Shown here in pieces: positions 9,007 to 64,000 of a DNA stretch of 64,000 nucleotides. Within the stretch, counting starts at the first letter, position 1; each line of letters starts with the position of its first letter. Origin of the DNA: Acidimicrobiaceae bacterium (GTDB lineage Bacteria; Actinomycetota; Acidimicrobiia; Acidimicrobiales; RAAP-2). The translations under genes and the position numbers were made by a program. The DNA lies in assembly GCA_003170315.1 (NCBI GenBank), contig PNAH01000026.1, positions 34,312 through 98,311 of the forward strand. Reading direction: 5' to 3'. The notes under the pieces are model-generated. The model made no database searches. It was not told where the DNA came from and saw nothing but the letters and a program-made list of their open reading frames with translations.

Positions 9007-9052
9007 ACTCTGTGAGGCAGAGTTAACCCGAAACAACTCTGCCTCACAGAGT
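9007..9052. promoter_or_regulatory. Paired dyad operator in a divergent promoter
   Basis: Two 18-base arms (9007-9024 and 9035-9052) form a perfect inverted repeat around a 10-base centre. Each arm is itself a dyad of the form ACTCTG-N5-CAGAGT. It sits between the divergent starts at 8985 (minus) and 9076 (plus). Two identical dyads suit binding of two regulator dimers, probably the winged-helix protein at 8084-8434. A hairpin role is possible but less likely in this position. Confidence 0.7.
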
Positions 9053-45663: not shown

Positions 45664-46830
45664 TCACTGTTTCGTTCCGAACCACTCTCGAAATGCAGCG
45701 TCGGAAAGTGGAGTACCAGGTCCGAGTGCCATCGCCTTAGAGTTTGGCCCTCCCGCCCCATCGAAATAACTTTCGAAGGCGAAGTCTTTGTTAGTAAAAG
45801 TCGAGCCAATGCCGTTGATATACGCCGGATCGTCACTCGCCGGGATTGTCGATAGTCCCCACTCGGGGAGACTCATCGGTTTACCCCTTGCCGCTGCGAA
45901 CGCCTCAAAGCGATTCAGTCCGGCTGGCTCACTCGCGAGCTGCGCGAACGTAAGTCGTGTGGTCGGAGTTTCGCAGCCGACGTCGTACAAATCGAGCCCG
46001 ATAATATCGACAAACTGATTCCCGGGGTAGAAGTTCTGATAGGGATAATTTCCGGTACACGCATTGACGTTCCAATCAAAGAGAAAGTGCTCACCCGCGA
46101 CGTGACGAAACGAAGTAACTTCCTTAGCAAAGCACTTCGCCCACAACTTCTGCTCTGTTTTCTTCGGCCCAATGAAATCAGACTCCCATACCCCGTTCAT
46201 CTCTGGTCCAAGGCGAATCACCGTATTCTCTAAACCGGCTGAGACCAGATTTGCACCTAGTTGCCTCGCGTAGGAGTTGTATGCCCCGGTCGCGCACGAC
46301 TTCTCCCATTTCATAGGATTTTTTACATTCTCAAGTTTATTTGGAATTAGGTTCACCGCTACGACCAGTTGGCGAGATTGAGGTTGCTGAGCAACCCACG
46401 AGGCAAAACCAACCTCCGTAGAGTCAACCCAGGGGTGTATCCATCCCGACCAAGTCTGTGCAACTGTATATACAGAAAGACAGGGCACGGTACTTCCCGT
46501 TACCGAATCGAAACTCGAAACCAAGGATTGTACGTAGGCGAGGCCGGATTTAGTTGAGTCCGGATTCAGCGTGACACATTGACTCCGAGATGGGCCTGCC
46601 GTAATCAATCCGTCCACCGGCGGTGAAGTTGTCGTAGTCGTTGAAGTCGTTGAAGACGACGCATTGGCACGGGCCGCAGAACTATCGGCGCGCGCGACCA
46701 GATGTTGATTCGTCGTTGCCCCTCCGGAAGGAACAGAGACCATAAATGAAAGAACCGCCATTGCGGCGACGGCAGCCGAGATAATCGCAGAATGCGCACC
46801 TCGCGTCTTAGCGGCGTTTTCTCTCTTCAT
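45664..46830 (-). CDS. Secreted GH26-like glycoside hydrolase
   Basis: 388 residues from the ATG at 46830. Signal peptide (SAIISAAVAAMAVLSFMVSV), then a Ser/Thr-rich linker (SSSTTSTTTTTSPP), then a TIM-barrel domain. Family GH26 features: RLGPEMNGVWESDF with the acid/base Glu, FDWNVNACTG, and LPEWGLSTIP with the nucleophile Glu. GH26 includes beta-mannanases and other endo-hydrolases. A paralogue is at 57329-58660. An enzyme that trims or releases the surface polysaccharide made by this locus is plausible. Confidence 0.75.
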   Translation of the reverse strand: MKRENAAKTRGAHSAIISAAVAAMAVLSFMVSVPSGGATTNQHLVARADSSAARANASSSTTSTTTTTSPPVDGLITAGPSRSQCVTLNPDSTKSGLAYVQSLVSSFDSVTGSTVPCLSVYTVAQTWSGWIHPWVDSTEVGFASWVAQQPQSRQLVVAVNLIPNKLENVKNPMKWEKSCATGAYNSYARQLGANLVSAGLENTVIRLGPEMNGVWESDFIGPKKTEQKLWAKCFAKEVTSFRHVAGEHFLFDWNVNACTGNYPYQNFYPGNQFVDIIGLDLYDVGCETPTTRLTFAQLASEPAGLNRFEAFAAARGKPMSLPEWGLSTIPASDDPAYINGIGSTFTNKDFAFESYFDGAGGPNSKAMALGPGTPLSDAAFREWFGTKQ

Positions 46831-47068
46831 TCGGGGGTATCCCTTTACTCGTCTCATTCTCAACATTTCGGAGTCGGGCGTCGACGACCTCACGACCATA
46901 ACTTTCAGTCAATCAGCAATAACCGCAAGAAAAAGTAAGCCTACCAGTCAAATCTGGATCGGCACTCCGCAGCGGTTCAGCTTCACATCAAATTCCATGA
47001 ATACGCTGATCCCACGTCGAGGAATTCGCCATTGAATGAATCCGGCACCGCTCTAACTGCCACGCTCT

Positions 47069-48883
47069 TTATGGCGCCACATCCTCGGCTGCCGTGTTAG
47101 CGACCTTTTGAAAGGCGGCGCGAGCCAAGACTTCCTTTCGGGGCCCAAAATCCGCTACTCGACCATTCTCGAGCACTAGGAGAAGGTCGCAATCCTCGAC
47201 GAGGGCGAGTCGATGCGAAATTATAATGCTCGTCATTTTTCCGCGAAGTTCGGTGATTGTCTGTCGAATCAAACTCTCTGAGAGACTATCGACGGCGCTA
47301 GTCGGCTCATCCATGACGAGCAGTCGAGGTGCACCGACAAGAGCTCGCGCAATCGCCAGCCGCTGGAGCTGACCTCCCGATAGGGCGGTGCCACCCTCGC
47401 CGACTTTGGTTTCGTACAGATCAGGCATCATCATTACGTCTTCATGAAGATGAGCTGCTCGCGATGCGGCTACAATCTCCTCGGGTTCAATATCTCTAAA
47501 GAGAGAGATATTGAACGCAATAGACCCTTCCAGTAGGACGAGGTCCTGAGCAACCAGCGCCACCGGACTCGACCTGCTTCCCTTTGCAATGCCGGTCGCC
47601 GGCACGCCCCCGACTAGGACGATGCCGCTTTCTGGCTCGAGCATTCCGAGGAGAATCTGACTCAGCGTGGTCTTTCCGCTGCCAGACCGCCCGACTATTC
47701 CCAGGATTTGACCGTCCGGGACGTGAAATGTTACTTGCTTCAGAACTCGTCCTCTGACGTCATAGGCGAACGACATACTGTTCACATCGAGATCGAATTT
47801 CGTCGGGAGTTCTCCGGAATCCACTTCGTATGGACTTTGGGAAAGACGGTCCAACTCCTGCGCCGTTGTATCCAGAAAGCCACCACTGGAACGTACCGCT
47901 TGAACACTGCTCTGCGTCCCAGACGCGTAAGACAGTGACCGCAGTATGAGGAGAAGCACGGCCGCTTTTTCACCAAGATTGTGCGTCGCATGGCCATTTA
48001 TGACCGCGAATGCGCAAATGAGGAAGAGCAGCGCCAGGGTTTGATAGACCACGGGGACCAGTAGTGACAAGAGCACTACTTGTCGCTGGGTGCGTGCGGC
48101 TGTTTCGTTACTCTCGACGAGTCCTGTTGTTGCTTCTTTTTCAACACCAAAGAGTCGAAACTCCCGAGCAAGTCTTATGTACTCGGTAACAAGTGTCGCC
48201 ATACCGAGGCTGTTGTCCGATAAGCGAGCGGAGGCTTTGCGGCCCCATGTGTTGAATGGATGCAAGACGAACGATAGCAATAGTCCAAAAACGAGGACGA
48301 TCATTGCAGCAATTGGGTTTACCAAGAATGCGACGAGAAGAAGTGCAATCAGCGTGAGCAGCGATTGGAGCCCCGACGCCATCGCTAATGTAATCGCGGC
48401 CGCCCTTTCACAGTCGAAGGTGAGTAACTGTTGGAGATGACCGATACGCTCCTGCGACTGCAGTCGCCAGGTCGTACGAAAGAAGGCATTGATCATCTTG
48501 GTTCGGATCGATGCCAAAGCCTTGGTAAATGTGGAACTGGTGCTGATACTGGCCGCAACACCGGTACCTAAATACACAATTAGGAGAACTATGCACAGGG
48601 CGATGGCGTCACGAGTTGAGAATGAATGGCCGTATAGTACGAAGTGATTTTTTCCTTGGGCGCTATTTACGGCAAACTCGCTTACTATCACCAAGATGCC
48701 GGCCTGCGCGAGGCCCGAGAAGAATGAACAGGTCGCAATCCAACTCAATTGCCGACCAAGTGAGGAACAGCCCATCGCTTTCAGCGTGGTCAGGATTCCA
48801 GCGATACTGCCTGTCGCGTTCTGCTCACGGGACTCGGAATCGTCTCCGTCTCGATGGAATCCCAATCTAAATCGTTTCGCCAC
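47069..48883 (-). CDS. ABC exporter (fused permease and ATPase)
   Basis: 604 residues. Six hydrophobic segments span about residues 40-320; the ATPase domain follows with Walker A GIVGRSGSGKTTLSQILLG, signature LSGGQLQRLAIARALV and Walker B RLLVMDEPTSAVDS, then SIIISHRLALVEDCD. Type I exporter layout (MsbA/lipid-linked glycan flippase-like). In this setting the likely cargo is a lipid-linked oligosaccharide or a polysaccharide. Homodimer expected. Confidence 0.88.
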   Translation of the reverse strand: MAKRFRLGFHRDGDDSESREQNATGSIAGILTTLKAMGCSSLGRQLSWIATCSFFSGLAQAGILVIVSEFAVNSAQGKNHFVLYGHSFSTRDAIALCIVLLIVYLGTGVAASISTSSTFTKALASIRTKMINAFFRTTWRLQSQERIGHLQQLLTFDCERAAAITLAMASGLQSLLTLIALLLVAFLVNPIAAMIVLVFGLLLSFVLHPFNTWGRKASARLSDNSLGMATLVTEYIRLAREFRLFGVEKEATTGLVESNETAARTQRQVVLLSLLVPVVYQTLALLFLICAFAVINGHATHNLGEKAAVLLLILRSLSYASGTQSSVQAVRSSGGFLDTTAQELDRLSQSPYEVDSGELPTKFDLDVNSMSFAYDVRGRVLKQVTFHVPDGQILGIVGRSGSGKTTLSQILLGMLEPESGIVLVGGVPATGIAKGSRSSPVALVAQDLVLLEGSIAFNISLFRDIEPEEIVAASRAAHLHEDVMMMPDLYETKVGEGGTALSGGQLQRLAIARALVGAPRLLVMDEPTSAVDSLSESLIRQTITELRGKMTSIIISHRLALVEDCDLLLVLENGRVADFGPRKEVLARAAFQKVANTAAEDVAP

Positions 48884-49230
48884 GTGATCCCTTGCTCGTT
48901 TTCTGGTTCAACTGCTCGTTATCTCTAGACTCACATTACGAGAAGATGGCGTTTGAACCGCCTCTAAGTCGGCAACGCTCACGAAACTGGGAGTAGGCGT
49001 AGCCGTCGGGGTGCAGTTCGCCGTATTTGAATCAAAACAACAATGCTCGATCTTTTCGACGACCAGGGCGCCAACGTTCCGGGTGCGTTTCGGGCAACAA
49101 CTACACCGAGCTCCGGAGAGCTCGAGACGCCTATCGATGAATCCTGCTTCGCGAAACAAGGGACCAATTGCCGAGCGCCATCCCGTCAGCCGACAAGTCC
49201 TGGTCCGTCGTCGGCAACTAGTCTGAGTCA
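48884..49230. other. Intergenic region
   Basis: Between the divergent exporter and small membrane protein genes. A minus-strand frame (CCPKRTRNVGALVVEKIE) looks coding-like but has no recognised family. Nothing else seen. Confidence 0.35.
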
Positions 49231-49641
49231 ATGCCTAGGATGGTTGCTTCTAATTCTAGTAGGCCCCTTTTAGCTCTTCTAATTGTCATCCTTTTGTTTG
49301 GGTTCACGCCGATCTCCCGAGTTCTGTTGCGGTCCGTAGACGGTAGTTTCGCTCCAAATCCATACAGCTCATTGGCGTTGGGTACTCCGTCACGTGCCGC
49401 CGTGGGATTTTTGGCGGGTGAGCCTGTGCCGGTACAGTTGACCAACCGAACGGGACACACCCAGACGTACCACTGGAGTGCCACACAGAATGGCGCTCTG
49501 ATCAGCCTCGGTGAAGACACATTGGACAGTGGACGGGCATCGACAGTATTCGTTCCATCCCGTGGTGCCGTCGCCGGCAAGTTGCGGATCGCACTTACTG
49601 GCACCGACATATTTGTCACCGTGCCCATTCGGAGCCCGTGA
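49231..49641 (+). CDS. Small single-pass membrane protein
   Basis: 136 residues: one N-terminal helix (about 10-26: SRPLLALLIVILLFGFT) and a beta-rich extracytosolic domain with VPVQLTNRTGHTQTYHW, resembling an Ig-like or cupredoxin-like fold. It overlaps the polytopic membrane protein as GTGA, so they should act together. No family recognised. Confidence 0.55.
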   Translation: MPRMVASNSSRPLLALLIVILLFGFTPISRVLLRSVDGSFAPNPYSSLALGTPSRAAVGFLAGEPVPVQLTNRTGHTQTYHWSATQNGALISLGEDTLDSGRASTVFVPSRGAVAGKLRIALTGTDIFVTVPIRSP

Positions 49642-52007
49642 GTACGAAATCTCCCGAGGCTAGGGAGAGCATTGAGATTGCGCCGAAGCTAACGTCGCGC
49701 CGGCTTTCAATCGGGGAGCTCTGGCCAAACGTTTCACCAACGGGGTTCTGGCTCGCCGCCGCTTTGCTGTTGTCTGTTGGTCTGGCTCTCTGTCACTCGC
49801 CACTGGTGCCGCTGCCGGGGGTCGTCACGCTCCTTCTTGTCCCGGGCGCAGCGGTGATGTCGGCCCTACGGGCGCGTCCAGCCAACATCGCTGGACGGCT
49901 GGTGCTGGCCGTATGCCTGAGCATGACGGTAATCATGATCGTGGGTGGTGTGGCCAGTCTGCTTGGCCCTCGGGTTGGTCTGGCACACCCGCTGAACGCA
50001 CTACCTGAGAGTGTGATCTGGGCCGTTCTCGCAATACTCATGCTGGCGGTTTGTGCAGTCAAGTACAGCGATCCAGTGACATGGATCTTTGAAGGTCTTC
50101 GGACTACGCACGCCGTTGGCGCGCTGGCGAGTGGCCTACTGGTTGTGCTTTCGATTCTTGGCGCCGCCCAACTGAACCACAGCGGCAACAATCACCTTGC
50201 GGTCTTCGCCACCACTCTCGACGTCGTCGTGCTGCTTGCTGGAATCGTGGGCGGATGGAGACGGACGAGCCGATGGCCCCTGAACTCCTTGCTCTACTTC
50301 GCCTCGTTGGCGCTCCTTGTGTCAACCAGTTTGCGTGGCGCACACCTCTACGGCTGGGATGTGCAACATGAGTTTGGCGTCGCTTCGGCTACGCTCCGCG
50401 CCGGAGTGTGGGTCGTACCCGCTAACCATGATGCCTACGCTTCGATGCTCTCGCTCACAGTTCTTCCGGCGATTCTTCACTCCTTAGTGAAGTTACGTCT
50501 CCTCGCTTTCTTTCAATTGGTTGTCCCCGCGATTTTTGCTCTACTACCCCTAGCGGTGTTCTCCACCGTTCGAGGCGTACCACGCTGGATCACCCACGGA
50601 CGGACCACACCTCGTCCCGGACTCGCGTTCGCAGTGGTAGTAGCCCTCATCGTTTCTAGTGTGGCATTCGCTTCCCAATTAATAAGCATTACTCGTCAAG
50701 CTATGGCTCTGACCATGATGGCCGCACTAGTGATGGTGCTCTTCGATCGCACTATGTTGAAGCGCCCTGCCCAAATTGTGATTGGTCTGCTACTTGTTGC
50801 CATTTCCATCACTCACTACTCGACTTCGTACCTTACGGCAGCCATATTGCTTTGCGCTTGGCCCGTGAGCTTGATGTGGTCCAGAGGACTGCTCGGAACA
50901 CCGAAAGAGAAGATTGATAGGCACCGTCGCGATACGCGATCGCGGAGCATCATAAACGGTACCCTCGTGGGCGTTGCTCTCATCGCCGCTTTCGGATGGA
51001 GTCTCGGGATCACTCGAAATAACGCCCTCACTAATCCCATAAGTGCCGTCATCGCCAAAGGATTTGGCTTTACGTCATCGACTCTGACAAGGAGTATTTC
51101 GCCTAGCCATTTTGAACAACTCTTTGTCCGTGAGTTAAGGAAAACTGATCGTTGGATAGTGCCAGTACCAAGTTCAAGCTCGGTTCATCTCGTGGCAGCC
51201 CCATACCTGAAGTCACCGGGGGTGGTCCCGATCCTCAACGCGTGGTGGCATGAGCTGAGCTATCTCACGATAGAAAGTCTGTGGCTCTTGCTCGGAGTGG
51301 CGCTGCTCTACGGGCTCTTTCGCCTCGGGCGTCGTCGCTCGTACGAGTACAGTTCCGATCTAGTGGGACTAGCTGCGGCCGGTCTAGTTCTTGGCGGAGT
51401 ATTACGCTTCTCTGGGACTTTCGCTGCCTACTTCGATCCCGACCGGGCGGCGATCGTTACGGCGATTCTGCTGGCCGCACCTCTCACCCTATTCCTCGAT
51501 GACATCGTGTCATTCCTTTACGGAGTGGGCAATTTTCGCCGTGATCGGGTGAGGCGAGCGTTGTTGGGCGCCGGAACCCTCGTGGTTGCGGTCCTTCTTA
51601 TCGGCGCCACCGGACTGGGCTACCTGTTCTTCGGTGGTAACGCGCCGGGATCGGTGACGGCGCGAGACGTAGGGGCCAAGGAGTTGACGGTTTCCACCCC
51701 TGAACTGGCGACAGCGGTGTGGCTACGGAACAATGTCAATTCTCCAAATATTGTCCAGAGCGATTTCCTCGGGCAAGTGATCTTGCTTTCCGAACCGGGG
51801 CGCTATGGGTTACTGCCTGAGATTGTGCCACCAGAGGTGGACCATGGGGCATACATTTACTTGTCAACACTTAACCTGGCCGGCGATCTTACTCAAGCTC
51901 AGGCGCCTGACGCCCCGTATCAGCTCGCGTACCGATCAACTATTGGATTCTTCAATCGAAACTTTTACATCGTTTATTCAACTGGTGCGACACGTGTTTA
52001 TCATTGA
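49638..52007 (+). CDS. Large polytopic membrane protein (polymerase or GT-C-like)
   Basis: 789 residues from a GTG that overlaps the upstream stop. About 14-16 hydrophobic segments run through residues 30-660, with a luminal-type loop ending FEQLFVRELRKTDRWIVPVP. The last 130 residues are soluble. This is the layout of polysaccharide polymerases or GT-C transferases; no catalytic motif could be assigned. In this locus polymerase is a reasonable guess. Confidence 0.62.
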   Translation: MSTKSPEARESIEIAPKLTSRRLSIGELWPNVSPTGFWLAAALLLSVGLALCHSPLVPLPGVVTLLLVPGAAVMSALRARPANIAGRLVLAVCLSMTVIMIVGGVASLLGPRVGLAHPLNALPESVIWAVLAILMLAVCAVKYSDPVTWIFEGLRTTHAVGALASGLLVVLSILGAAQLNHSGNNHLAVFATTLDVVVLLAGIVGGWRRTSRWPLNSLLYFASLALLVSTSLRGAHLYGWDVQHEFGVASATLRAGVWVVPANHDAYASMLSLTVLPAILHSLVKLRLLAFFQLVVPAIFALLPLAVFSTVRGVPRWITHGRTTPRPGLAFAVVVALIVSSVAFASQLISITRQAMALTMMAALVMVLFDRTMLKRPAQIVIGLLLVAISITHYSTSYLTAAILLCAWPVSLMWSRGLLGTPKEKIDRHRRDTRSRSIINGTLVGVALIAAFGWSLGITRNNALTNPISAVIAKGFGFTSSTLTRSISPSHFEQLFVRELRKTDRWIVPVPSSSSVHLVAAPYLKSPGVVPILNAWWHELSYLTIESLWLLLGVALLYGLFRLGRRRSYEYSSDLVGLAAAGLVLGGVLRFSGTFAAYFDPDRAAIVTAILLAAPLTLFLDDIVSFLYGVGNFRRDRVRRALLGAGTLVVAVLLIGATGLGYLFFGGNAPGSVTARDVGAKELTVSTPELATAVWLRNNVNSPNIVQSDFLGQVILLSEPGRYGLLPEIVPPEVDHGAYIYLSTLNLAGDLTQAQAPDAPYQLAYRSTIGFFNRNFYIVYSTGATRVYH

Positions 52008-52042
52008 GACGACGTCTTCATAGCACTTCGCGCTGTCGAACC

Positions 52043-52930
52043 TTAACGTTCTTGTCGCGCTGATCGAAACTCGTTGCGGATGGCTTGTTCGTCCATTGTT
52101 TCGAAGTTCTTGGTGGAGTGAATAATCGATTTGCCGAGTTCCAGTAACTCCTGCGGGGCCGCTGGGAGAGTCCTCCAGTCGACGCCCATGGGGAGGTCGT
52201 CGTATCTATTACCAAACTCACCGAGTTGATAGCCGATGGAATAAAGACACAGGCCAAAGATGTAGTCCTCCTGCAGTCCAGTCCTGAAAAGCTCGGCTCG
52301 CCCGAGAAGGCCGTTCTCATCCAGAGCCGCCACTGCCTCATAGCGGTAAATTGCCGCACCACCTTGGATTGAGTCACCGAGCATGTAACCGTGCTTACGG
52401 GCTCGTAGGAGGAGACCGACGAACTTATGCGCCGCCCGAGGATTGGTCCACGCGCGGACCGCCAGATAGAGAAGAATTCGCCGCTTGGCCCAGCCCGCGT
52501 TACGGACTCCAATACGGTCGTAGCCAACGCGAAATGAGCCAAGCGATCCTAGATGCGGGTCAGAGTCGAAGAGTTCTATTGCCTTGACCTCAAAATCAGA
52601 ACCCGCTATGAGCGCGTCAGTGTCGAGCCGGACGAGAATTCGGAAAGGCCGAGTGAGGGCTTCTTTAAACCCATCGGAGAGGTTCAGATAAAGTCCCCCA
52701 AATACACCGCGCGCACGAGCCTCCACGACAGTGAGTTGGTAGCGTTCTCCTAACTTGATCCCGAGACCACGCCGAGAATCGTCAACCAGGATGATCCGAG
52801 CCGTTGGTGCGAAGTAGCGAATGCTATCGATCGTGTCGGTGACGAAGTCTGGCCGACATTTCGGGCCAACAGGAATTACGAAGACCGAATCGGCGCCCAC
52901 GTTGCGCCGTTTCTCGGGATCTATGGACAT
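52043..52930 (-). CDS. GT-A fold glycosyltransferase-like protein
   Basis: 295 residues: VFVIPVGPKCRPDFVTDTID, ARIILVDDSRRG and LVRLDTDALIAGSDFEVKAI with a D-x-D-like site. The C-terminal half has LLLRARKHGYMLGDSIQGGA and EDYIFGLCLYSIGYQLGEFG. No membrane segment. The fold assignment is by motif. Confidence 0.62.
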   Translation of the reverse strand: MSIDPEKRRNVGADSVFVIPVGPKCRPDFVTDTIDSIRYFAPTARIILVDDSRRGLGIKLGERYQLTVVEARARGVFGGLYLNLSDGFKEALTRPFRILVRLDTDALIAGSDFEVKAIELFDSDPHLGSLGSFRVGYDRIGVRNAGWAKRRILLYLAVRAWTNPRAAHKFVGLLLRARKHGYMLGDSIQGGAAIYRYEAVAALDENGLLGRAELFRTGLQEDYIFGLCLYSIGYQLGEFGNRYDDLPMGVDWRTLPAAPQELLELGKSIIHSTKNFETMDEQAIRNEFRSARQER

Positions 52931-53039
52931 GGGCGGCGAGGCGTGATTGCAACGAGTTCCCTTGTCGGGAAGGAGGAGTCGTAATGGCCGCCATCAATGA
53001 ATTGTGATTTCTCAGGGTGGCTGATCATGACTCCCAAAA

Positions 53040-54197
53040 TCACGATACCCCGAGCATCTCGTCATAGAGCGATTCGTAGCCCTCGATCATCTTCGCGAGG
53101 CTGAAGCGCTCAAGGGCAACCGCCCGGGCTCTGGTACCGAAACGGCGACGAAGCTGAGGCTGGTCAATCAACTGTCTCAAAGCCGATGTCAAATCGATGA
53201 CGTCGTCACTTTTCACAACGAAGCCCGTCTCGCCATCCTGAACGGCCTCACGGACACTGCCAACGTCAGTTGCGACGACGGGGAGGCCCATCAACATCGC
53301 TTCGAGGATCGAGAGGGGGAAGCCCTCTGCACGCGACGGCAAGACAAAGACGTCAAAGGTCTTCATGAGCTCGGCAGGCGACTCGACCCAGTCGAGAATC
53401 TTTACCCGAGGCGCGACCCCGAGCGTTTCGGCCAGCTCCTCGAGTGCGGCACGCTCCTTGCCACGGCCAGCAACGACGAAGGTGGCACCTGGAAGATCGA
53501 CAAGAGATTCAAGAACAAGGTCGAGCCCCTTCAAATAGTCGAGCCTTGCCAAGCACCCGATGACCGTCGAACCCAAGGAATAGCGGTGCTCCTCGGCAGA
53601 GCCGTGATCGACAACACCGTTATAGATTGTCCGCACTGAGTTTCTGGGCAACATGGCGCGCAATTCGATGCTGCGCGCCGCAGCCACTCCAACAGCCACG
53701 TGTGCGTCAAGGCGCCGCGAGGTGAAGCACGTCATGATCCGGCTACGAGTTCCCGAGTTATCGATGGGCAGGTGTTCGACGGCGAGCAGCCGAAGTCCGA
53801 GGATGGTAGAGGCGGCCACGATCGCCTCTCTGCATGCCGGCAACCAGGTCAAGTTTGCCTGGAATATGTCGAGCTTCATAGCAGCGACTTCTCGACGATG
53901 TCGTGCAATGTTCCGGAAGTCGCGGATGCCTTTCGGAGCGGGAAGGACAACGGCTCGAGAGCCAGGTCGGTAAGCTGAGAGGTGCTCTACAGTTGTTTCG
54001 TCGACACCGATGATCGTCGCCCGGACGTGCTCATGGAGTCCTGCCAATAGCGTGCCGAGAGCAATTTCGGCACCGGCCCACTCGACCGAGTCGGAGTAAA
54101 AGCCCACGTTTATCGACGATCGAGAAGTAGTGATCTCCGTCTGCCCCTCTGATCGCGGGCGGCACAGGGCCATGTTCCCCTTGACTCCAATATCCAC
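53040..54197 (-). CDS. Glycosyltransferase family 4
   Basis: 385 residues. N-terminal domain with VGFYSDSVEWAGAEIALGTL; C-terminal domain with STVIGCLARLDYLKGLDLVL, ATFVVAGRGKERAALEELAE, DVFVLPSRAEGFPLSILEAM and LPVVATDVGSVREAVQDGET. The E-x7-E donor motif is intact. No close partner on the minus strand. Confidence 0.88.
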   Translation of the reverse strand: MDIGVKGNMALCRPRSEGQTEITTSRSSINVGFYSDSVEWAGAEIALGTLLAGLHEHVRATIIGVDETTVEHLSAYRPGSRAVVLPAPKGIRDFRNIARHRREVAAMKLDIFQANLTWLPACREAIVAASTILGLRLLAVEHLPIDNSGTRSRIMTCFTSRRLDAHVAVGVAAARSIELRAMLPRNSVRTIYNGVVDHGSAEEHRYSLGSTVIGCLARLDYLKGLDLVLESLVDLPGATFVVAGRGKERAALEELAETLGVAPRVKILDWVESPAELMKTFDVFVLPSRAEGFPLSILEAMLMGLPVVATDVGSVREAVQDGETGFVVKSDDVIDLTSALRQLIDQPQLRRRFGTRARAVALERFSLAKMIEGYESLYDEMLGVS

Positions 54198-54973
54198 TTG
54201 TCAGCTGCCGCGCCGTGCGCCCTATCCAGGCTCGGGCTCGTCACCCGAGTCTCTCCATTCTCCGCGAATCCCAAGGCCGCCCGGAGGCGATCCTCTTTGA
54301 CTCCACGTTCCTTGACGAACGATCCGGCTCGAACCGAGTGTGCTATCTGTGATACGACGGTCGGGGGCCCAGCCGCAACTATTCGGACAACCGATGAACG
54401 AAAGTGAGAACGGTGACGATCCGGTTGCCATGTGGCAACTCGGGGAGTGGGCGACTGCGGCGCGAAACGGCGGTCGGTGATGGTCACAAGGCCTCCACGG
54501 ATCATTTGTCGAAGATAGCGGTTGGCGGCATTGCATCTGCGTCAGGCTCGTAGCTCAATCTTGGCTTGGCTACCCTCAAGCTTCACCTGATCGTATCGCA
54601 CCCCGCGTGACTGACGTTTGTCTCGATATTTTAACTTTATGATGGCGGTGTCTCGGACGAAACTCGACATTTTTTGATCGTGAATTAGGTACAACATGCG
54701 GACGATTGACAGAAGCGACGTGCGATAGCAAGCCTGGGCGCGTCCACATGTCCTAATCCTCGCCCCACTTCAAAAAAGTTTACGAATCCGCCGGCTTCAT
54801 CCAGCGTCGACGCGCTCGCTCGATCGCAAGGCCGCGAAGGTCCGCATACGCCGTTCTCCCCAAAGCACGGACTGCTTCGCTCCCCATACAATGTAGCCCA
54901 GGCGACTTCCAGGGCTCATGGAGCGAGGCCGAGACGTCACAACAGAACACTCCGAGTGTTGAAGGGAACTGAC
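54198..54973. other. Intergenic region of about 775 bp
   Basis: Nothing recognised. The left part has a minus-strand open frame overlapping the GT4 start, without family features. The right part is AT-richer near 54,630-54,690. Both strands were read for transposase remnants; none was convincing. Confidence 0.4.
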
Positions 54974-56131
54974 GTGTCCACCAGCCAGTCAGTGAGGCTG
55001 TTGTCACTCAACCAGAATCTGGCGGGATCCGGAATGCTTGGTCACGAGACTGCCGAACGTCGGATGCGCCAAATTGGCGCATCCGACGTTCGGCTGCAAT
55101 CGCTCGTCACAAAGCTCCCCCCGCTGGGGCTGGCCGGCCGGGTTGCGGGGCGACCGCTCCCGTGGCTTTGGTACCTTGACCTTGATTGGCATCCGACCCG
55201 CTGGCAAATCGTCGAGAGCCTTCGCGGCCGCCACACCTTGAAGAAACTGTTGAGTACGTTCGACGCCAACGTGGTGCACGTGAGCACGCACACAGCTGCG
55301 CTGTTATGCGTCCGGTTAATGCGGCAGCGTCCCTTCATGATTTCTGTCGATGTGCCGATTTGGCCTTGGCATGAAATGGGTATATGGCGACCGGTTCGGT
55401 CCTATAGCCGAGCATCGCTGTGGCTTTCCGAACAACTTGAGCGACGAGCTTTTGGCAACGCAGCGTTAGTGCTTGCATACTCAGAGTGGGCGGCCCACCT
55501 GGTCCAGCAAGAGTGCCCGTCCGCTCGAGTTCGGATCTGGCATCCCGGTGTGGACGCAAACCGGTTTAGCCCCGCGTCCCAGCGGCCAGCAGGAGGCGGC
55601 CACATTCCCTATCGCCTGCTCTTTGTAGGCGCGCGCTTTGCAGCCAAGGGTGGCGAGGACCTCCTTGAGGCGGTCGGCCATCGATTGGGTCGCGATATTG
55701 AATTAGACATCGTGACGCCCGACCCGGTGGCAAGTAGGCCCGGGCTGCGGGTCCACCACCTGGAGCCCGGGGCGCCACAATTGGTAGATCTCTACCGTTC
55801 AGCAGACCTGTTGTGCCTACCGACGAGGGGTGATTCCTTCGGTTGGGTAGTGCTTGAGGCAATGAGTTGTGGTGTGCCTGTTATAGCCTCGAGAATGGGT
55901 GCTATACCCGAGTTGCTCCGACCAGGCACTGCCGAGGCAGCTGGAATTGTGGTGGATGCGCGCGATCCCGCAGCATTGGCACAGGCACTGGACGAGTTGC
56001 TAGCTGACCCAGAGCGGCGCAGAAGCTTGGGCGCAGCTGGTCGCAGAGCGGTCCTCGCACGCCACTCGAGTGAGGTTCAGATGAAGCGCTTCCTAGAACT
56101 TGTCGGCGAAGTATTGGAGTCCGCGAGCTGA
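54974..56131 (+). CDS. Glycosyltransferase family 4 (with internal palindrome)
   Basis: 385 residues from the GTG at 54974, preceded by AAGGGA; a GTG at 54956 adds six residues. GT-B signatures: YRLLFVGARFAAKGGEDLLE, LYRSADLLCLPTRGDSFGWV and VVLEAMSCGVPVIASRMGAI (E-x7-E). A perfect 43-bp palindrome lies at codons 27-40 (55052-55094). Surroundings carry more unusual codons than the block around 38-45 kb. Probably another sugar transferase of this locus. Confidence 0.85.
   Translation: MSTSQSVRLLSLNQNLAGSGMLGHETAERRMRQIGASDVRLQSLVTKLPPLGLAGRVAGRPLPWLWYLDLDWHPTRWQIVESLRGRHTLKKLLSTFDANVVHVSTHTAALLCVRLMRQRPFMISVDVPIWPWHEMGIWRPVRSYSRASLWLSEQLERRAFGNAALVLAYSEWAAHLVQQECPSARVRIWHPGVDANRFSPASQRPAGGGHIPYRLLFVGARFAAKGGEDLLEAVGHRLGRDIELDIVTPDPVASRPGLRVHHLEPGAPQLVDLYRSADLLCLPTRGDSFGWVVLEAMSCGVPVIASRMGAIPELLRPGTAEAAGIVVDARDPAALAQALDELLADPERRRSLGAAGRRAVLARHSSEVQMKRFLELVGEVLESAS
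55052..55094. repeat. Perfect 43-bp palindrome inside a GT4 gene
   Basis: Two 21-base arms (55052-55072 and 55074-55094) are exact reverse complements around the single base A at 55073. The left arm begins GCCGAACGTCGG and the right ends CCGACGTTCGGC. The bases outside (T and T) do not pair. It lies 79-121 bases into the coding sequence and encodes residues around ERRMRQIGASDV. Confidence 0.9.
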
Positions 56132-56475
56132 TTAGACCCTTGCGACATCGGAGCGGAAAACGGCGCTAAGCGTACAGAGGGGCTGTCTGCGAGGGTCGAC
56201 CCCGTGGACGGGGGCCTGGACTGGCCCCACGGCGTGGCTGTGCCCATCAAATGTTCCGCTCGGACGAGGATGCGGCCCTGTTCGGCCCCCGTGAAGTCAG
56301 CGGCGGTCATGCCCACATCGTGGCTGAACTTGAGGGAACTAAAAGGGTCGCGCTGAGAACTTCGAGACGTTAATGTAAGGCAGTCCGGCGCCAACTTGGC
56401 GGGCGCCGGGGATCGAGGAGCGCTGGGTCTAGATGCGGTACAAGTGATCGCATCTGCTGAGGAGTAGAAAAAGAG
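56132..56475. other. Intergenic region
   Basis: Nothing recognised. The GAGGAGTAGAAAAAGAG near 56,458-56,475 probably contains the ribosome-binding site of the next gene. Confidence 0.35.
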
Positions 56476-57282
56476 ATGAGCGTTGCCGATTTCATTCGGT
56501 GGGAGATACGAAATGCCCCAAGACGCGCCACACAAGCTCGGCGAGTTGCGATTGATGAATTCGACCGCGCGCCGCATCGGCTCCACAAGGCTGCAAAACG
56601 CTGGCCTCTGCCCTCGACTCAGTTGGTATGCGTCTATCGGTACAGCAATCATGCCCACGTCGAGGCGATACTTGACAATTATGAAGTCCGAGCGGCGCTG
56701 TGGGCCCTTGACAAGACGCATCCGGCACTTGCTTCCCAGACGTGTGGTAGTGGGCCCGGTGGTCGATTTGCTCTCCTCAACAGACTCATCGGCGAGCTAC
56801 CTGAGGACGGCAGCCACTTGGTCATCACGGACGATGATGTCACTTTCGCTCCAGGCAGTCTCGCAACGCTGGTGAAGACTTCGGCCCATTTCGGTATAGA
56901 CCTGGCTCAGCCGGCTCACGGTCCGCTCAGTCACTGCTCGTTCGACTACAACCGATTTCAGCGGGGCGTCATTGGGCGTCGCACCATGTGGGTCGAAATT
57001 GGACCGACAGTATTATTCGGCCCAAAAGCTCGCGACGAACTCTTGCCGCTTCCGGAGAATTCGACAATGGGGTGGGGCCAGGAGGCAGTGTGGCACCAAG
57101 CAGCGAAGAATGGCCTGGCACTCGGTATCATCGATGGCGTCCGAATGCGCCACCGAGGCTATGTCGCCGCTTCCTATGACCTGGAGACAGCGGCAGCGGA
57201 GGACGCTAGAGCGCTCGCGAAATACGGGTTGACATCGCAAAGCGAAATGCAGATAACCATCTCCGCCTTAGCCATCGACTAG
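56476..57282 (+). CDS. GT-A fold glycosyltransferase-like protein
   Basis: 268 residues, starting at ATG. QLVCVYRYSNHAHVEAILDN and LVITDDDVTFAPGSLATLVK give a GT-A-like fold with a D-x-D (DDD) site; later MGWGQEAVWHQAAKNGLALG and VRMRHRGYVAASYD resemble DUF707-type putative transferases. Cytosolic. Ends 47 bp from the convergent GH26-like gene. Confidence 0.6.
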   Translation: MSVADFIRWEIRNAPRRATQARRVAIDEFDRAPHRLHKAAKRWPLPSTQLVCVYRYSNHAHVEAILDNYEVRAALWALDKTHPALASQTCGSGPGGRFALLNRLIGELPEDGSHLVITDDDVTFAPGSLATLVKTSAHFGIDLAQPAHGPLSHCSFDYNRFQRGVIGRRTMWVEIGPTVLFGPKARDELLPLPENSTMGWGQEAVWHQAAKNGLALGIIDGVRMRHRGYVAASYDLETAAAEDARALAKYGLTSQSEMQITISALAID

Positions 57283-57328
57283 TTGACTATCCAACGGGGT
57301 GAAGGGTCACTGTCGGGTAAGACCCCTA

Positions 57329-58660
57329 TTAGTTGCCGAACTCCTGTTGGTACGCCGCGTTGGACAGTGGTGTGCTGGAGCCCAGCACCATGGTGTTGCC
57401 CGCGACCTCGTCGAAGTACTGCTGGAAGGCGAAGTTTCCATTGTTGACCGCAGATCCAATCCCGTCAATGTAGGCGGGGTCGTCGCCCGATGGACTCGAC
57501 ACCAGACCCCACTCGGGAAAACTCATGGGCTTTCCTTGGGCGGCAGCGAACGCCTCAAAAGTGATCAGACCTGCAGGAACACGGGCCAACTGTGAGAAAG
57601 GCACTGCGGTATTGGGGTTCATGCACGACTGGTCATAGACGTCCAACCCCATAATGTCCACATACGCATTGCCGGGGTAGTAGTTCGCGTAAGGAGTTGA
57701 CGCAGTGCAGGAGTTGGGATTCCAGTCGATGAGGAAGTGCTCGCCCGAAGCGGAACGCAGCGCGGTGACTTCGTTGTCGAAGCAGGTCGCCCACAGGCTC
57801 TGCTCTTGGGTGGTGGTGCCGATGAAATCGCCCTCCCACGACCCATTCATTTCCCAACCGAGACGAATCACTGAATTCTGTAGACCGGCGGCGACAAGAT
57901 TCGTGCCGAGTTCTGAAGCGTACGTGTTGAAGTCTCCCGCCGCGCACGACTGCTCCCAACCCAGTGGGTTACTCGAGTCGGCGATACTCGCAGGGATCAG
58001 ACTTATTCCCAACACCATTTGACGGACCTGGGGATCTGCGGCGATCCATGAGGTGTATCCGGCACCTGATGGGCCAGTAAACCAAGGATCCGTCCAATCG
58101 CTCCAGGCCAGGTCCGACCCATATGCTCCGAGGCACGTCACCGTAGAACTGGTCAGGGCATCATAGCTGGCGATTGTGGACTGAAGAGCGGAGAGACTCC
58201 ACCCGACGTTGCTGTTAGCGGTGAGGCATTCGCTTCGCGATGCACCTGCCGTGATGGGCCCACCCGAAGAGGAAGGAGTCGATGGTGCGGTCGTCGGCGC
58301 TGTCGGGTCGGTCGTGGTCGTCGTCGGAGGAGCCGTGGTCGTCGTTGTCACCGGAGGTGTGGTCGTCGTTGCCGCGCCGCCGCCGCCGCCGCCAGGCGCG
58401 ACCGTCGCACCGGTCGACGTGGAGCTGATTGGAGACTGGCGGTCAAGCCCGAATCTGATCAGCTGGCTGATACCCGACTCCGACACGAAGACGTACGCGT
58501 GAGTCGCCGTTCCCGCAACCGCGGGGGTTGACCCGCTGGCCGAAGCATCGACGGTGATCATCGCCACGAGTGCAAAGGAGGTGACAGCAAGAGTCACGCC
58601 CTTTAGAAAACGGTGCGTCGTCTCGCCCTTAACAAATTTTGTGATTGTGCCCTTATTCAT
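57329..58660 (-). CDS. Secreted GH26-like glycoside hydrolase with Thr/Pro linker
   Basis: 443 residues from the ATG at 58660; a TTG at 58693 adds 11 residues. Signal peptide LKGVTLAVTSFALVAMITVD, a short N-terminal segment, a Gly-rich then Thr/Pro-rich linker (about 85-130), and a catalytic domain with IRLGWEMNGSWEGDF (acid/base Glu) and FPEWGLVSSPSG (nucleophile Glu). It is a paralogue of the protein at 45664-46830. Beta-mannanase-like or related endo-hydrolase. Placed at the opposite end of the transferase block. Confidence 0.75.
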   Translation of the reverse strand: MNKGTITKFVKGETTHRFLKGVTLAVTSFALVAMITVDASASGSTPAVAGTATHAYVFVSESGISQLIRFGLDRQSPISSTSTGATVAPGGGGGGAATTTTPPVTTTTTAPPTTTTTDPTAPTTAPSTPSSSGGPITAGASRSECLTANSNVGWSLSALQSTIASYDALTSSTVTCLGAYGSDLAWSDWTDPWFTGPSGAGYTSWIAADPQVRQMVLGISLIPASIADSSNPLGWEQSCAAGDFNTYASELGTNLVAAGLQNSVIRLGWEMNGSWEGDFIGTTTQEQSLWATCFDNEVTALRSASGEHFLIDWNPNSCTASTPYANYYPGNAYVDIMGLDVYDQSCMNPNTAVPFSQLARVPAGLITFEAFAAAQGKPMSFPEWGLVSSPSGDDPAYIDGIGSAVNNGNFAFQQYFDEVAGNTMVLGSSTPLSNAAYQQEFGN

Positions 58661-58833
58661 GTTGTATAAATTCACAGGCGCAAATCGCGGCAACGCCTAC
58701 GGTCCCACAACATTCACCCAACTTGGTCAGACAACGCGGTTTACCAGGACTTTTGGGGAATCTTTTGTATTAAAAAGTTGCGTCTCATTGACGCCGCGTA
58801 ATCAATCAACGCCGCCGACATCGTTCACCGTCT
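58661..58833. other. Upstream region of the GH26-like gene
   Basis: Nothing recognised besides TATACA-like sequence directly before the ATG (58,661-58,670), possibly a leaderless promoter. Confidence 0.3.
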
Positions 58834-59113
58834 TGAGCAACCCGCCAGCGAGCGCGGTGCGCCACATTGCGTGCGCACTGATAATGGCCCGGAGTTCGTC
58901 GCGAACGCGCCCAACGAGTGGTGTCGCATCATCGGATCCAGATCTCTCTTAATAGATCTGGACTCACCCTGACAGAACGCCTGAAACGAATCGTTCAACG
59001 CTCGAATTCGTGACGAGTTCCCAAACGGCCGGCAGTTCGACAGTCTCTTCGAGGCAAAGGTCGTGCTCGAAGACTGGCAACATGAACACAATCACGACTC
59101 GTGGACGGATTAA
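58834..59113 (+). pseudogene. Decayed IS3-family transposase C terminus
   Basis: In one frame, from about 58834 to the TAA at 59111-59113, the reading gives ERGAPHCVRTDNGPEFVA with the DDE-type DNGPEF, then ESFNARIRDEFPNGRQFDS and LFEAKVVLEDWQHEHNHDSW, the conserved end of IS3-type OrfB. Two in-frame TGA codons interrupt it, where Trp and Tyr are expected (SPW-QNAY-x-ESFN). A 9-bp dyad (58937-58962) lies inside. No inverted terminal repeats were identified. Confidence 0.75.
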
Positions 59114-59220
59114 TCAGATCGTGGCGCACCGACGGCTGGAACTCCGAGTCGAAACGTAACGAAGGCCCGTCGGTTCGATAGTACGAGAGGTCGGTGCGCC
59201 AAAGATGTTGACGGATCGTT

Positions 59221-60705
59221 TCAGCGGCGATGAAAGTGAATCACGCCCACACCGCTAATCGATCCGCTTTTCACTCGAATGAATCCATGGCTTCTCAGGC
59301 TGGATATGAATCCCCCCGTCCCTTTCACACTCCCGTCGTTCACCACCCACACGTTGCTGGGTGCGACCACGAAGGCGCTCGCACTCTCACGTAAATCGAG
59401 ACCCTCGATGAACGACTGATTCGACACTTGCGGCCAGCGGCGTAGCGGCGAGCCAGCGCGCTCCAAGTAATACTCGACTGCGGTCGTAATGGAATGGTCC
59501 GGCAGTGCGACCTCGCTCGTTGGGCTGGCGTTGCGCATGATGTACTGCGCGGCGCTCTGTAGATTTTCGAATTGGGATCTCGAGACGGTGACCGAGTTCG
59601 CAAAGAGAATGACCAGGATAGCGATCATCGCCCCGATGACGATTATTTGCCTTCGAACCGTTAACCGAGCCCGTAGCGCTCGCAGCGCGTACGTGATGAG
59701 TAACGCTAACGCAATCGCCATCCCTGGCACCGACGCGGTCACGTAGCGGTCCACGTAGATGAGATGTACTGCGGTTATGAGAACGAGAATCGCCGTTGGC
59801 ACGACTGCCCAACAGAGGCAGACGACCAACCGGTCGACTTCGAAACGAGACAGGGCCAAGTTGCGCCGGCGCCATCCGAATACGCATCCGGCAACCGTGA
59901 GGAGTCCGATTACCGCGACGATAACTGGATAGATCAGGTGCCCGAGCGCCGAGGATGCCGGCCCTTCAATGTCTTCCAGAAACGATTTCGGAGTTAGAGC
60001 GCGGATCCACGCAACTTGGCCCTGTTGATGTGCCACGAACGCTAGGAATGTCACTACTGCCACGACCAGTATTCCGATCGGTGCCAGCAATCTGCGCCAC
60101 TGACGACGAAACAACTGAGACTTCATCGCGGCGCTAGCTCCTAGCACGCTGAGTGGCGCCAAGACCATGAACAGTTGCAGCATGAGCGTCACTATCGCAA
60201 GAAAACTGAACAGCCATACCCAACGGACTTCTCCTCGATCGAACCACCTCATGAGGGCTGCGACGGACAGGACGGAAGTCAACGTTGCAAGGGCGTAGGG
60301 ACGGGTGTTCAGCGCTTCGGTGATCATGAGCGGACTTGTGCACGTAATGACGACGGCGAGGAGTCCGCACCAGAAGCCAGCTACGCGGTTGGCGAGAACT
60401 CCAACGAAATATACGGTAAGACCGTATGCGAGTAACGAGAGGGCTCTCGCCCATTGAATGCTGTACGACGGCTCGAGCCAAAAATGAAGGAGCGCGTAGT
60501 AGATCACGACCACACGGTCAACGACGAGAGACTGATGCCACAAGGCAGTCCAACCCAAATGTGCGGAGTAGAGCGAAGCCCCCTCATCCCGCGATATCGA
60601 CTTATTGAGAAAGGGCAGTAGCGCCGCCGAGGACAAAATCGAGACGATTGCAAATATGGCATTCGAAGCGCTTCCTGGTGTGCGCGCCGTCTTCGGAGAA
60701 ACCAT
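59221..60705 (-). CDS. GT39/ArnT-like membrane glycosyltransferase
   Basis: 494 residues from the ATG at 60705. About 11 hydrophobic helices; the first lumenal loop has SRDEGASLYSAHLGW with the Asp-Glu pair typical of GT-C enzymes of the GT39/ArnT type, and YALLHFWLEPSYSIQWARAL and YVDRYVTASVPGMAIALALL later. The C-terminal soluble domain is about 90 residues. It would use a polyprenyl-phosphate sugar outside the membrane, and the polyprenyl-phosphate synthase-like GT2 proteins in this locus could supply it. Confidence 0.72.
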   Translation of the reverse strand: MVSPKTARTPGSASNAIFAIVSILSSAALLPFLNKSISRDEGASLYSAHLGWTALWHQSLVVDRVVVIYYALLHFWLEPSYSIQWARALSLLAYGLTVYFVGVLANRVAGFWCGLLAVVITCTSPLMITEALNTRPYALATLTSVLSVAALMRWFDRGEVRWVWLFSFLAIVTLMLQLFMVLAPLSVLGASAAMKSQLFRRQWRRLLAPIGILVVAVVTFLAFVAHQQGQVAWIRALTPKSFLEDIEGPASSALGHLIYPVIVAVIGLLTVAGCVFGWRRRNLALSRFEVDRLVVCLCWAVVPTAILVLITAVHLIYVDRYVTASVPGMAIALALLITYALRALRARLTVRRQIIVIGAMIAILVILFANSVTVSRSQFENLQSAAQYIMRNASPTSEVALPDHSITTAVEYYLERAGSPLRRWPQVSNQSFIEGLDLRESASAFVVAPSNVWVVNDGSVKGTGGFISSLRSHGFIRVKSGSISGVGVIHFHRR

Positions 60706-61516
60706 GATTTTCGCTTCACTTTCAAGAAAGAAAAACCGGCTGAAGGGTCGTGACGTCAGTGTTCTCGAAACCTTAATCAAATACCGGTGCGATTTCGTAC
60801 GTTCGCAGCGACGCAAGTCTTGGAGCGGGCGACGGGAATCGAACCCGCGTTCTCAGCTTGGGAAACTGAGATTCAGAAATGAATGTGATTGCAGAACTGT
60901 TGCGCATTAAGCACTTGAAAGGTCGCGAGTTCCAACAAATGCCGTTGGATTCGGCTGCGAGGCGGCAGTCATTGGAAGTTCTGGTAGGCGGGAGCTCCCG
61001 CAGTATGCGCTTGTAATCTCATTTAAAATCCGGGCGTCAGGCTTGGAGGTACTTTTGGCCAAGTGGACCAGTAATTTCCGAGCACGCGCCCGTGTCTCAA
61101 GGATTCCGAAGTTACAACACTAAGGAATCAATGATTTCGATCCTCCAATCGAGATCCTCAATTGCCATTGACGAATCGCGAAACCCACGTGCATCCCACT
61201 CATAATCATCCCGATTTAGGCGTCAGGAGCAACCCTGGAGAATCGCCCAACGAAGAGGCTGAACGTCGAATTAGGCACTGAATTGATAGTCGGGGAAGCG
61301 ATTATTTAATTTCCTAATCGTGACTATCTTTGCAATTTGTGTTCTGACGGTCCTGGTCCGAGCCACTAAATAAATCTTCGAAGCTCGCGGTGGCGCTCTT
61401 AGGGAATCACAACGGATTCACACCCACTTGACAACGCACTCAAAAACTGGGATGGTGTTTTTCGCAAGGGCATATTCGAAGGATACGGCTTTGAAAAATA
61501 GCTCTGCGATCTTGGT
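60706..61516. other. Intergenic region with tRNA-Gly fragment
   Basis: Besides the tRNA-Gly fragment, TTGCAGAACTGTTGCG (60889-60904) matches 16 of 16 bases with the repeat copy at 10381-10396. The rest has no gene recognised; the part after 61,460 is a diverged copy of the region upstream of the GT2 gene at 39652. Confidence 0.55.
60821..60871 (-). tRNA. 3' half of a tRNA-Gly (CCC), truncated
   Basis: Read on the minus strand, the anticodon arm TCAGT-TTCCCAA-GCTGA (anticodon CCC) is followed by a perfect T arm (CGGGTTCGATTCCCG) and GCCCGC TCCA. The expected 5' half (GCGGGCG...) is missing: upstream sequence does not fold. So this is not a working tRNA but a fragment, as left by integration at a tRNA gene. 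Confidence 0.8.
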
Positions 61517-62311
61517 TTGAGATCCGGAATGTTCACCGACTCAACAAGTGAGTTCACGCCATTCCGGCTTTCGATAATCGTCCCCTCCTACAACGAGCAT
61601 TTGACCATTCTCAGGGTGCTAGATGCACTTTTGTCTCTTGACATACCTGGGAAAGAACTTGAAATCATTGTGGTCAACGATGGTTCCACTGACGGCACGG
61701 CAGAATTGCTCGAGTCATTTGATGACTCCAGATGCGTCAAAGTCAGTCACGCGGTGAACCTTGGCAAAGGTGCTGCAGTGCGAACGGGAATCGCTTCCGC
61801 CCAGGGCTCGCACGCACTCATTTTCGACGCCGACCAAGAGTACGACGTCGCCGATATTCCGCGATTGGTTACACCGATCCTGTCGGGCAGAGCCGAAGTG
61901 GTGTACGGGAATCGGATGTCCGGCTTCGGGACCGTGCACCCGTCCCTCTGGCACTCCGTCGGTAACAAGGCGATGACATTTGTTGCAAACATCATGTTTG
62001 GCTCTGCAATTTCTGACTTGCACACTTGCCTCAAACTCATCCCCATGCCACTTCTTCGTAGTTTTAAGCTCGACGAAAATGGTTTCGGATTGGATACCGA
62101 AGTAAGCGCTGAAATGCTTCGCGCCGGATTTCGTCCTTTCGAAGTCCCAATTAGCTATGTGGGTCGTAGCAAAGAAGAAGGAAAGAAGATTCGACTCAAT
62201 GACGCACTTCGATGTGTCTTCGTGCTCGTCAAAGTTCGTCTCCGGCCCGTCACTCCGTACGGGCGGCGAAATCGCGCTCTGACGCCTCGGGTACACACTT
62301 CTACGGACTGA
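61517..62311 (+). CDS. Glycosyltransferase family 2, paralogue
   Basis: 264 residues from a TTG at 61517, matching the start of its paralogue (an ATG at 61529 is possible). Same motifs as the protein at 39652-40446: LSIIVPSYNEHLTILRVLDA, VNDGSTDGT, NLGKGAAVRTGIASAQGSH, FDADQEYD and YGNRMSGFG. In the other copy an in-frame extension exists; here an in-frame TAG lies before the start. Opposite strand to the first copy, so the pair is an inverted duplication. Confidence 0.82.
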   Translation: MRSGMFTDSTSEFTPFRLSIIVPSYNEHLTILRVLDALLSLDIPGKELEIIVVNDGSTDGTAELLESFDDSRCVKVSHAVNLGKGAAVRTGIASAQGSHALIFDADQEYDVADIPRLVTPILSGRAEVVYGNRMSGFGTVHPSLWHSVGNKAMTFVANIMFGSAISDLHTCLKLIPMPLLRSFKLDENGFGLDTEVSAEMLRAGFRPFEVPISYVGRSKEEGKKIRLNDALRCVFVLVKVRLRPVTPYGRRNRALTPRVHTSTD

Positions 62312-62570
62312 ACACGGTCAGAACGGCCGACTCGTCATGTTCACTCGCGTAGTCGAAGTTCGCGTTCGGTCCCTGCGTGGCTGGGATCGTGGAATTCAAA
62401 AGTGGTCCCATAACCCTGGACATCATCACGACTTGGAAGTCCGGCGACCCGGCTTACCAATTTTATGGGCGCACACTAGGGTCTTACAATGATCGACCGG
62501 CACCGAAGTTGAGATTCGCCTTTCTCTTGTTCTCAAAGTCACTCTTTTCGAGGTACTGCCGGATGACCCC
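62312..62570. other. Intergenic region
   Basis: A short frame (62,377-62,574: VEFKSGPITLDIITTWKSGD) has no family; it may be remnant sequence from the decay of the neighbouring GT4 copy. Confidence 0.35.
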
Positions 62571-62798
62571 GTGAGTCGTCTTCGGGTAGCCCACGTGACC
62601 GACGGGGACCGAGCGGTCTTTTCTCCAACCGATTCTCTTCGCCCTTTCGACGTTTCACCTGTCTTAATTCGCAAGTTTGACTTCATGGAGGCGGCTTACA
62701 TGCCTCGTCTACAGCTCCTTCCGCTTCGCCTGGGCACATGGATCCGACGAGTGCCGCTCGGTATCACTTGGAACGAAGTGAGGAATCGAGAAGGATGA
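62571..62798 (+). pseudogene. Internally deleted remnant of the GT4 gene
   Basis: 75 residues. The start MSRLRVAHVTDG matches MKRLRVAVVSDA of the GT4 at 38423-39577, and IRKFDFMEAAYMPRLQLLPL with RRVPLGITWNEV matches its residues around 96-133. About 80 residues between are missing, and nothing after the WNEV remains. Its stop overlaps the epimerase start as ATGA, so the remnant may still be translated and coupled. Confidence 0.75.
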
Positions 62799-63751
62799 GA
62801 GTTCTTGTGACTGGCGCCGCTGGATTTATCGGCTCGACGACCGCCGAACTATTGCTGTCAAATGGTGACGAAGTTGTCGCTTTCGACAGTTTGGTCACCG
62901 GTCGATTCGAGAACGTGCCGCCAGGAGCGACGTTTGTAGAAGGCGACTGTGGTGACGTTGAATTGGTGAGGTCGCTAGGTCACTTCGATGCATGCGTGCA
63001 TTTCGCGGCCCGAATTGAGCCGAGCGAATCGATGAAGAATCCTGAGGACTTCTTCTCCAATAACGTTGCGTCGAGCTTTCGCCTCCTCGACGCGCTCATT
63101 AAGTCGGGCGTTGAACGGTTCATTTTTTCATCGTCGTGCGCGGTCTACGGCGACCAGATCGAGATGCCGATTGACGAGACTCGTACGACCCAGCCTCAGA
63201 GTCCGTACGGTCAGTCCAAACTTATGGTGGAAGATGGTCTGAGATGGCTGGTATCTGCGGGCCGGTTACGCGCGGCATCAATGCGCTACTTCAATGCGGC
63301 GGGGGGTACTCTGGCGCACCCGGAACGCCACATTCCGGAAGGTCATCTCATACCCATTGCACTGGATGCCGCCGATGGTCATCGAGAGTATCTCGAGATC
63401 TTCGGTAATGACTATCCGACACCCGATGGCACGTGCATTCGAGACTACATCCACGTTAAGGATCTCGCCGAGGCCCACGTGCTCGCCATCACTGCGCTGG
63501 AGAATCATCGTGAACTGGTGTTAAATCTCGGTTCCGGTGTGGGATATTCCAATCGCCAAGTTGTCGAGACGGTAAAGAAGGTAACGCAGCGCGACTTTGA
63601 AATCCGCTACTCAGGGCGCCGATCTGGCGACCCCGCGGTGGCAGTTGCCAGCAATGAGCGAGCACGCGTGATGTTGGACTGGCAACCTGAGCAATCGGAC
63701 ATTGAAGTCATTGTCGCCGACGCGTGGGCGGCCCGTCAGGCTTTAGGTTGA
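62795..63751 (+). CDS. galE: UDP-glucose 4-epimerase-like NAD-dependent epimerase
   Basis: 318 residues from the ATG at 62795 with GAGAAGG upstream. The extended SDR pattern includes VTGAAGFIGSTTAELL (NAD site), FSSSCAVYGDQIEMPI, the catalytic YGQSK and ASMRYFNAAGGTLAHPE, then DYIHVKDLAEAH, all GalE-type. It makes UDP-galactose or a related sugar for the glycan. The family is large, so the exact sugar is not fixed. Confidence 0.85.
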   Translation: MRVLVTGAAGFIGSTTAELLLSNGDEVVAFDSLVTGRFENVPPGATFVEGDCGDVELVRSLGHFDACVHFAARIEPSESMKNPEDFFSNNVASSFRLLDALIKSGVERFIFSSSCAVYGDQIEMPIDETRTTQPQSPYGQSKLMVEDGLRWLVSAGRLRAASMRYFNAAGGTLAHPERHIPEGHLIPIALDAADGHREYLEIFGNDYPTPDGTCIRDYIHVKDLAEAHVLAITALENHRELVLNLGSGVGYSNRQVVETVKKVTQRDFEIRYSGRRSGDPAVAVASNERARVMLDWQPEQSDIEVIVADAWAARQALG

Positions 63752-63903
63752 TCTGCGAATTGTGAACTTCGCCCTCGACGATGTTCACGACGGCTGGACT
63801 CGATGAGGTTCGGATTCGTGCGCGCACGGTGATTTGCGGTGGCGTGTGAGACGCGATGAAAAATGTGCTTGACCGCAGGTCACCATCGATTGATAATGGC
63901 GGT

Positions 63904-64000
63904 ATGTCCAGCGAAGAGGTCACGGTGTACCTCAATGCGCTCGAGGAGCCCAAGCGCACCGCGCTGCAGAAGCTTCGCGAAACGATCCTTGAGGTGATCC
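63904..64000 (+). CDS. DUF1801-type protein, 5' part
   Basis: The gene runs off the window. The visible N terminus, MSSEEVTVYLNALEEPKRTA then LQKLRETILEVI, matches the start of the DUF1801 (YdhG-like) family. No promoter was assigned. Confidence 0.6.
   Translation, partial: MSSEEVTVYLNALEEPKRTALQKLRETILEVI

Follow-up and report, generated by a model that had tools for sequence, protein, structure and literature searches.

A perfect coding palindrome in a glycosyltransferase gene of an Acidimicrobiaceae bacterium: a probable scar of template switching during replication

In Escherichia coli, template switching at quasipalindromes perfects imperfect inverted repeats with the nascent strand as the template, as described for the thyA hotspot and the lacZ QP5/QP6 reporters (PMC7202029). 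In Saccharomyces cerevisiae, template switching put multi-base changes into 39 genes and the affected repeats were found to have short spacers; in REG2, 5-bp arms became perfect coding arms of 16 bp in one event that changed five amino acids (PMC8604942). Perfect repeats are also known from conserved coding regions of Nematomorpha mitochondria, where four small genomes hold 110 repeats of at least 15 bp and where codon phase 1 was the least constraining among the coding palindromes (PMC6649704).

In this work we looked at a palindrome inside a GT4 glycosyltransferase gene, found in a window of 64 kb (the whole stretch of DNA that was analysed) from an Acidimicrobiaceae bacterium. It resembles the E. 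coli cases as a perfected inverted repeat with a short spacer in a coding sequence of a bacterial chromosome, but it is known from its end product alone. With REG2 it shares a perfect repeat within the gene, a short spacer and several changed neighbouring amino acids, whereas the imperfect ancestors of the yeast repeats are known from sister strains. The Nematomorpha palindromes are similar in their perfect arms, their conserved coding surroundings and the low constraint of phase 1, yet those genomes carry many repeats and our window has just one long repeat, in a gene of a bacterium. We suggest that the palindrome is the scar of a replication template switch in which one arm, probably the left, was copied over the other and perfected a quasipalindrome; we give this reading a probability of about 0.65. 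The features of the locus are as follows.

54974..56131, plus strand: GT4 glycosyltransferase gene, 385 aa from GTG 54974, with full-length homology and an intact frame
55036..55051, plus strand: left flank, with weak, imperfect and non-significant complementarity to the right flank (~55095-55115)
55052..55072, plus strand: left arm, codons 27-33 (AERRMRQ), with a moderate fit to the family helix (E..(M/L)R); proposed template arm
55073, no strand: central unpaired base A, the first base of codon 34 (ATT, Ile)
55074..55094, plus strand: right arm, codons 34-41 (IGASDVRL), the part that fits the two nearest homologues least well; proposed as the arm that was overwritten

The 43 bases at 55052-55094 are the top hit of an inverted-repeat search of the window. 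The repeat is exact and reads GCCGAACGTCGGATGCGCCAA-A-TTGGCGCATCCGACGTTCGGC, with two arms of 21 nt that are 100% complementary around a 1-nt spacer, just as the original prediction had described it; such a spacer fits the short spacers of template-switch repeats. Counted from GTG 54974, the palindrome begins exactly at codon 27 and runs through codon 41 (nt 79-121), in frame and without a stop; its distance from the start and its open frame were also predicted correctly. Although the open frame extends up to GTG 54956, the better and likely start codon is GTG 54974, which has an AAGGGA ribosome-binding site six bases before it. A small inverted repeat, AACACTCCGAGTGTT, lies at 54946-54960 of the window, just 5' of this ribosome-binding site. 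The residues upstream of the palindrome (VRLLSLNQN...GH) can be aligned to strand beta-1 of the homologues and to their GH motif, and a true start further downstream, which would make the palindrome intergenic, was rejected for this reason. The protein matches the Pfam families Glycos_transf_1, Glyco_trans_1_4 and Glyco_transf_4 over most of its length, and within its N-terminal domain the palindrome falls where the first helix ends and the next loop follows. The single-sequence AlphaFold model was uninformative (mean pLDDT 34.9).

How unusual such arms are was judged from the coding sequences of the host genome. Hairpins were sought in about 1.2 Mb of this genome (about half) and in 0.6 Mb of G361, a genome of the same genus, and 0.79 Mb of confident host coding sequence served as the background set, from which the GT4 gene is absent because its codon usage is unlike that of the host. 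The set holds 33 perfect arms at 10 nt, 19 at 11, 2 at 12, 6 at 13 and 1 at 14, with none longer, a drop of ~3.5-fold per base. The expected number of arms of at least 21 nt in the same 0.79 Mb is ~4e-5 by extrapolation from synonymous shuffles and ~1e-4 by extrapolation from the observed tail. The perfect complementarity of the arms is thus far above chance for a coding sequence, as originally claimed, and a chance origin is unlikely even though the palindrome was picked out of a large scan. In both genus genomes perfect coding arms of at least 11 nt are ~2.2 times commoner than in synonymous shuffles (28 vs ~12.6 and 31 vs ~14.5), an excess that fits a general background of template-switch events and to which codon-pair effects could contribute.

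The codon phase of the palindrome pairs first positions with first and second with third. This phase (phase 1) restricts the protein least, and the same ordering of phases was found across host genes. Even so, 21-nt arms can be reached by synonymous change alone at just 4 of the 83,240 centres of this phase in host coding sequence, so the event probably changed amino acids as well.

Homologues were sought in 1361 genomes, and ~25 homologues, at 29-42% identity and from other families of the order and class, could be aligned over the palindrome region. The best match in this set had 42% identity, and none was a close orthologue that could show the ancestral quasipalindrome; the 98 other genomes of the genus gave one match, weak and partial, to the N-terminal domain. 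In nearly all of the ~25 homologues the number of residues from the GH motif to the following proline region is equal, and from this spacing it follows that the palindrome replaced family sequence in place and was not added to it as a foreign insertion. Comparison of the N terminus with these transferases also shows that the divergence is centred on the palindrome. Compared with L036 and L148, the nearest two homologues, its 15 residues are the most divergent query-specific 15-mer of the aligned protein (rank 1 of 316, roughly p = 0.05 given the overlap of windows; rank 16 of 316 when all homologues are compared). The two homologues agree well with each other across these residues (+3.7, vs -1.6 and -2.1 for the query).

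The direction of the proposed copying is suggested by the two arms. Among 7-residue windows compared with L036 and L148, the right arm diverges most (rank 1 of 324, with relatives that are only ~40% identical and a gapped alignment that is less clear), and the left arm retains the family pattern E..(M/L)R; together these are a modest indication that the left arm was the template and the right arm the copy. When gaps are allowed in the alignment with L036, the right arm regains a G..DV match, and the case for overwriting would then be weaker. The codon usage of the arms, 0.60 and 0.40 against a gene mean of 0.48 +/- 0.11, does not clearly separate them.

A mechanism that would fit these data is a template switch, by the nascent strand or by the polymerase, at a short and imperfect inverted repeat while the GT4 gene was being replicated. 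Synthesis would then have replaced one arm, probably the right, by the reverse complement of its partner before switching back, and the quasipalindrome would have become a perfect palindrome of 21-nt arms with no net change in length. Such a scar may have survived as the frame was kept, no stop was created and the end of the first helix with its loop is tolerant of substitution. The mRNA hairpin and a possible DNA cruciform would be by-products of the event and not its purpose. The original prediction had offered an inversion scar as one option, which is the closest of its ideas when narrowed to a replication template switch. If the reading is correct, the palindrome is a clean natural example in which one replication error could rewrite about seven adjacent codons of a bacterial enzyme, a change that would be mistaken for a burst of selection by substitution models.

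Another explanation is that the hairpin is a selected RNA element, in which a 20-bp stem formed by codons 27-41 tunes the expression of the transferase, either by slowing ribosomes or as a target of RNase III cleavage. The hairpin is indeed very stable, as predicted (-41.6 kcal/mol, z = -11), and it dominates the fold of the 5' region; RNase III could plausibly cut a perfect stem of ~20 bp. However, the start codon and the stem are 78 nt apart, which places the hairpin outside the initiation footprint; it lies too deep in the gene to cover the start and should not block initiation directly. In the homologues examined no comparable hairpin exists at the homologous position: 57-60 nt were folded and nearly all gave ordinary energies, with mildly low values in two homologues alone (L053 and L163), neither near the query. 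An Rfam search of the palindrome matched no family either, and these two results speak against a conserved structured mRNA element. The sequence is also single copy. Neither a T-run terminator nor a sigma-70-like promoter was found near the palindrome, and an intrinsic terminator was excluded by the missing T tail and by the position 78 nt into the gene. We therefore consider a selected RNA element unlikely, and the specific proposal that ribosome slowing or RNase III cutting was selected to control an acquired surface-polysaccharide transferase is very doubtful. The translation-control element of the original prediction is left unsupported by the distance from the start codon and by the homologues. 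A regulatory hairpin here would be an unusual control point if true, and nothing in our analysis supports regulation; the locus does show that a perfect 20-bp mRNA stem can occur within an intact-looking gene.

It is also improbable that one arm is not real and results from an assembly or consensus error. The genome is a metagenome-type draft of 36 contigs, which leaves room for such errors, but the frame, the length and the protein on both sides of the palindrome are kept. A chimeric fold-back read, the error considered in the original prediction, would give long arms, whereas here the complementarity ends at 21 nt and the unrelated flanks both encode the same conserved protein. Complementarity between the flanks is at chance level (p ~0.03 by alignment score, 0.09-0.14 by duplex energy), and a longer fold-back past the arms was rejected on this basis.

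A recognition site that happens to fall in the gene, such as a symmetric operator, a recombinase or telomere-resolvase site or a REP-like mobile palindrome, is highly improbable. Perfect symmetry is typical of protein-binding sites, and resolvase sites include large single palindromes. Yet this palindrome is single copy in the genome even when up to 3 mismatches are allowed, and nothing is inserted at its position relative to the homologues; the exact arm sequence was also not found in viral contigs. The copy number and the location inside a gene speak against a REP or other dispersed palindromic repeat, and the one base between the arms speaks against a phase-variable invertible element. The proposed role as a phase-variation or recombination point likewise gains no support from a single-copy sequence whose inversion alters the central base only (ATT Ile to TTT Phe). 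For the palindrome as a whole, regulation, phase variation and mobility are all without evidence. Least probable of all is that point mutations alone made the arms complementary. The permissive codon phase speaks for it, as do the many windows of the originating scan, in which rare events get picked; against it stands the expectation of ~4e-5 to 1e-4 such arm pairs per 0.8 Mb of coding sequence.

The gene itself appears foreign to its host. Its CAI-like score is 0.47, compared with 0.68 +/- 0.06 for the host, and lies below all 659 confident host coding sequences; the genes around it also score low, which suggests a horizontally acquired polysaccharide region. At a larger scale, window positions 46000-64000 hold glycosyltransferases and membrane proteins with a GC content of ~0.50-0.61, against 0.62 for the genome, and low coding scores, and this region is probably an acquired polysaccharide island.

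Perfect arms of 16-22 nt do exist elsewhere in the host and in G361, mostly in intergenic gaps, at the ends of genes or where divergent genes start, placed as terminators or operators are. Two hairpins of a same-genus genome, L081:15379-15423 and L080:10034-10072, have perfect arms of 22 and 19 nt, similar in length to those of the window palindrome and with the same 1-nt spacer, and are apparently terminators with no obvious T run. The genus hairpins of 16-22 bp sit at or just past gene ends in a terminator-like position, whereas the window palindrome is located inside a gene near its 5' end. The longest perfect arm in the confident coding sequence of G361 is 16 nt, with a 9-nt loop, at L107:9954-9994 in the PAS domain of a PAS-GGDEF gene, which adds a second and shorter coding palindrome for the genus. 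Within our window, 9007-9052, in the gap before the ORF at 9076, holds an inverted repeat whose perfect arms of 18 nt are separated by 10 nt. The ORFs that flank it gave no Pfam match; each of its arms is itself nearly palindromic (ACTCTGTGAGGCAGAGTT), and the repeat resembles a double operator placed between divergent genes.
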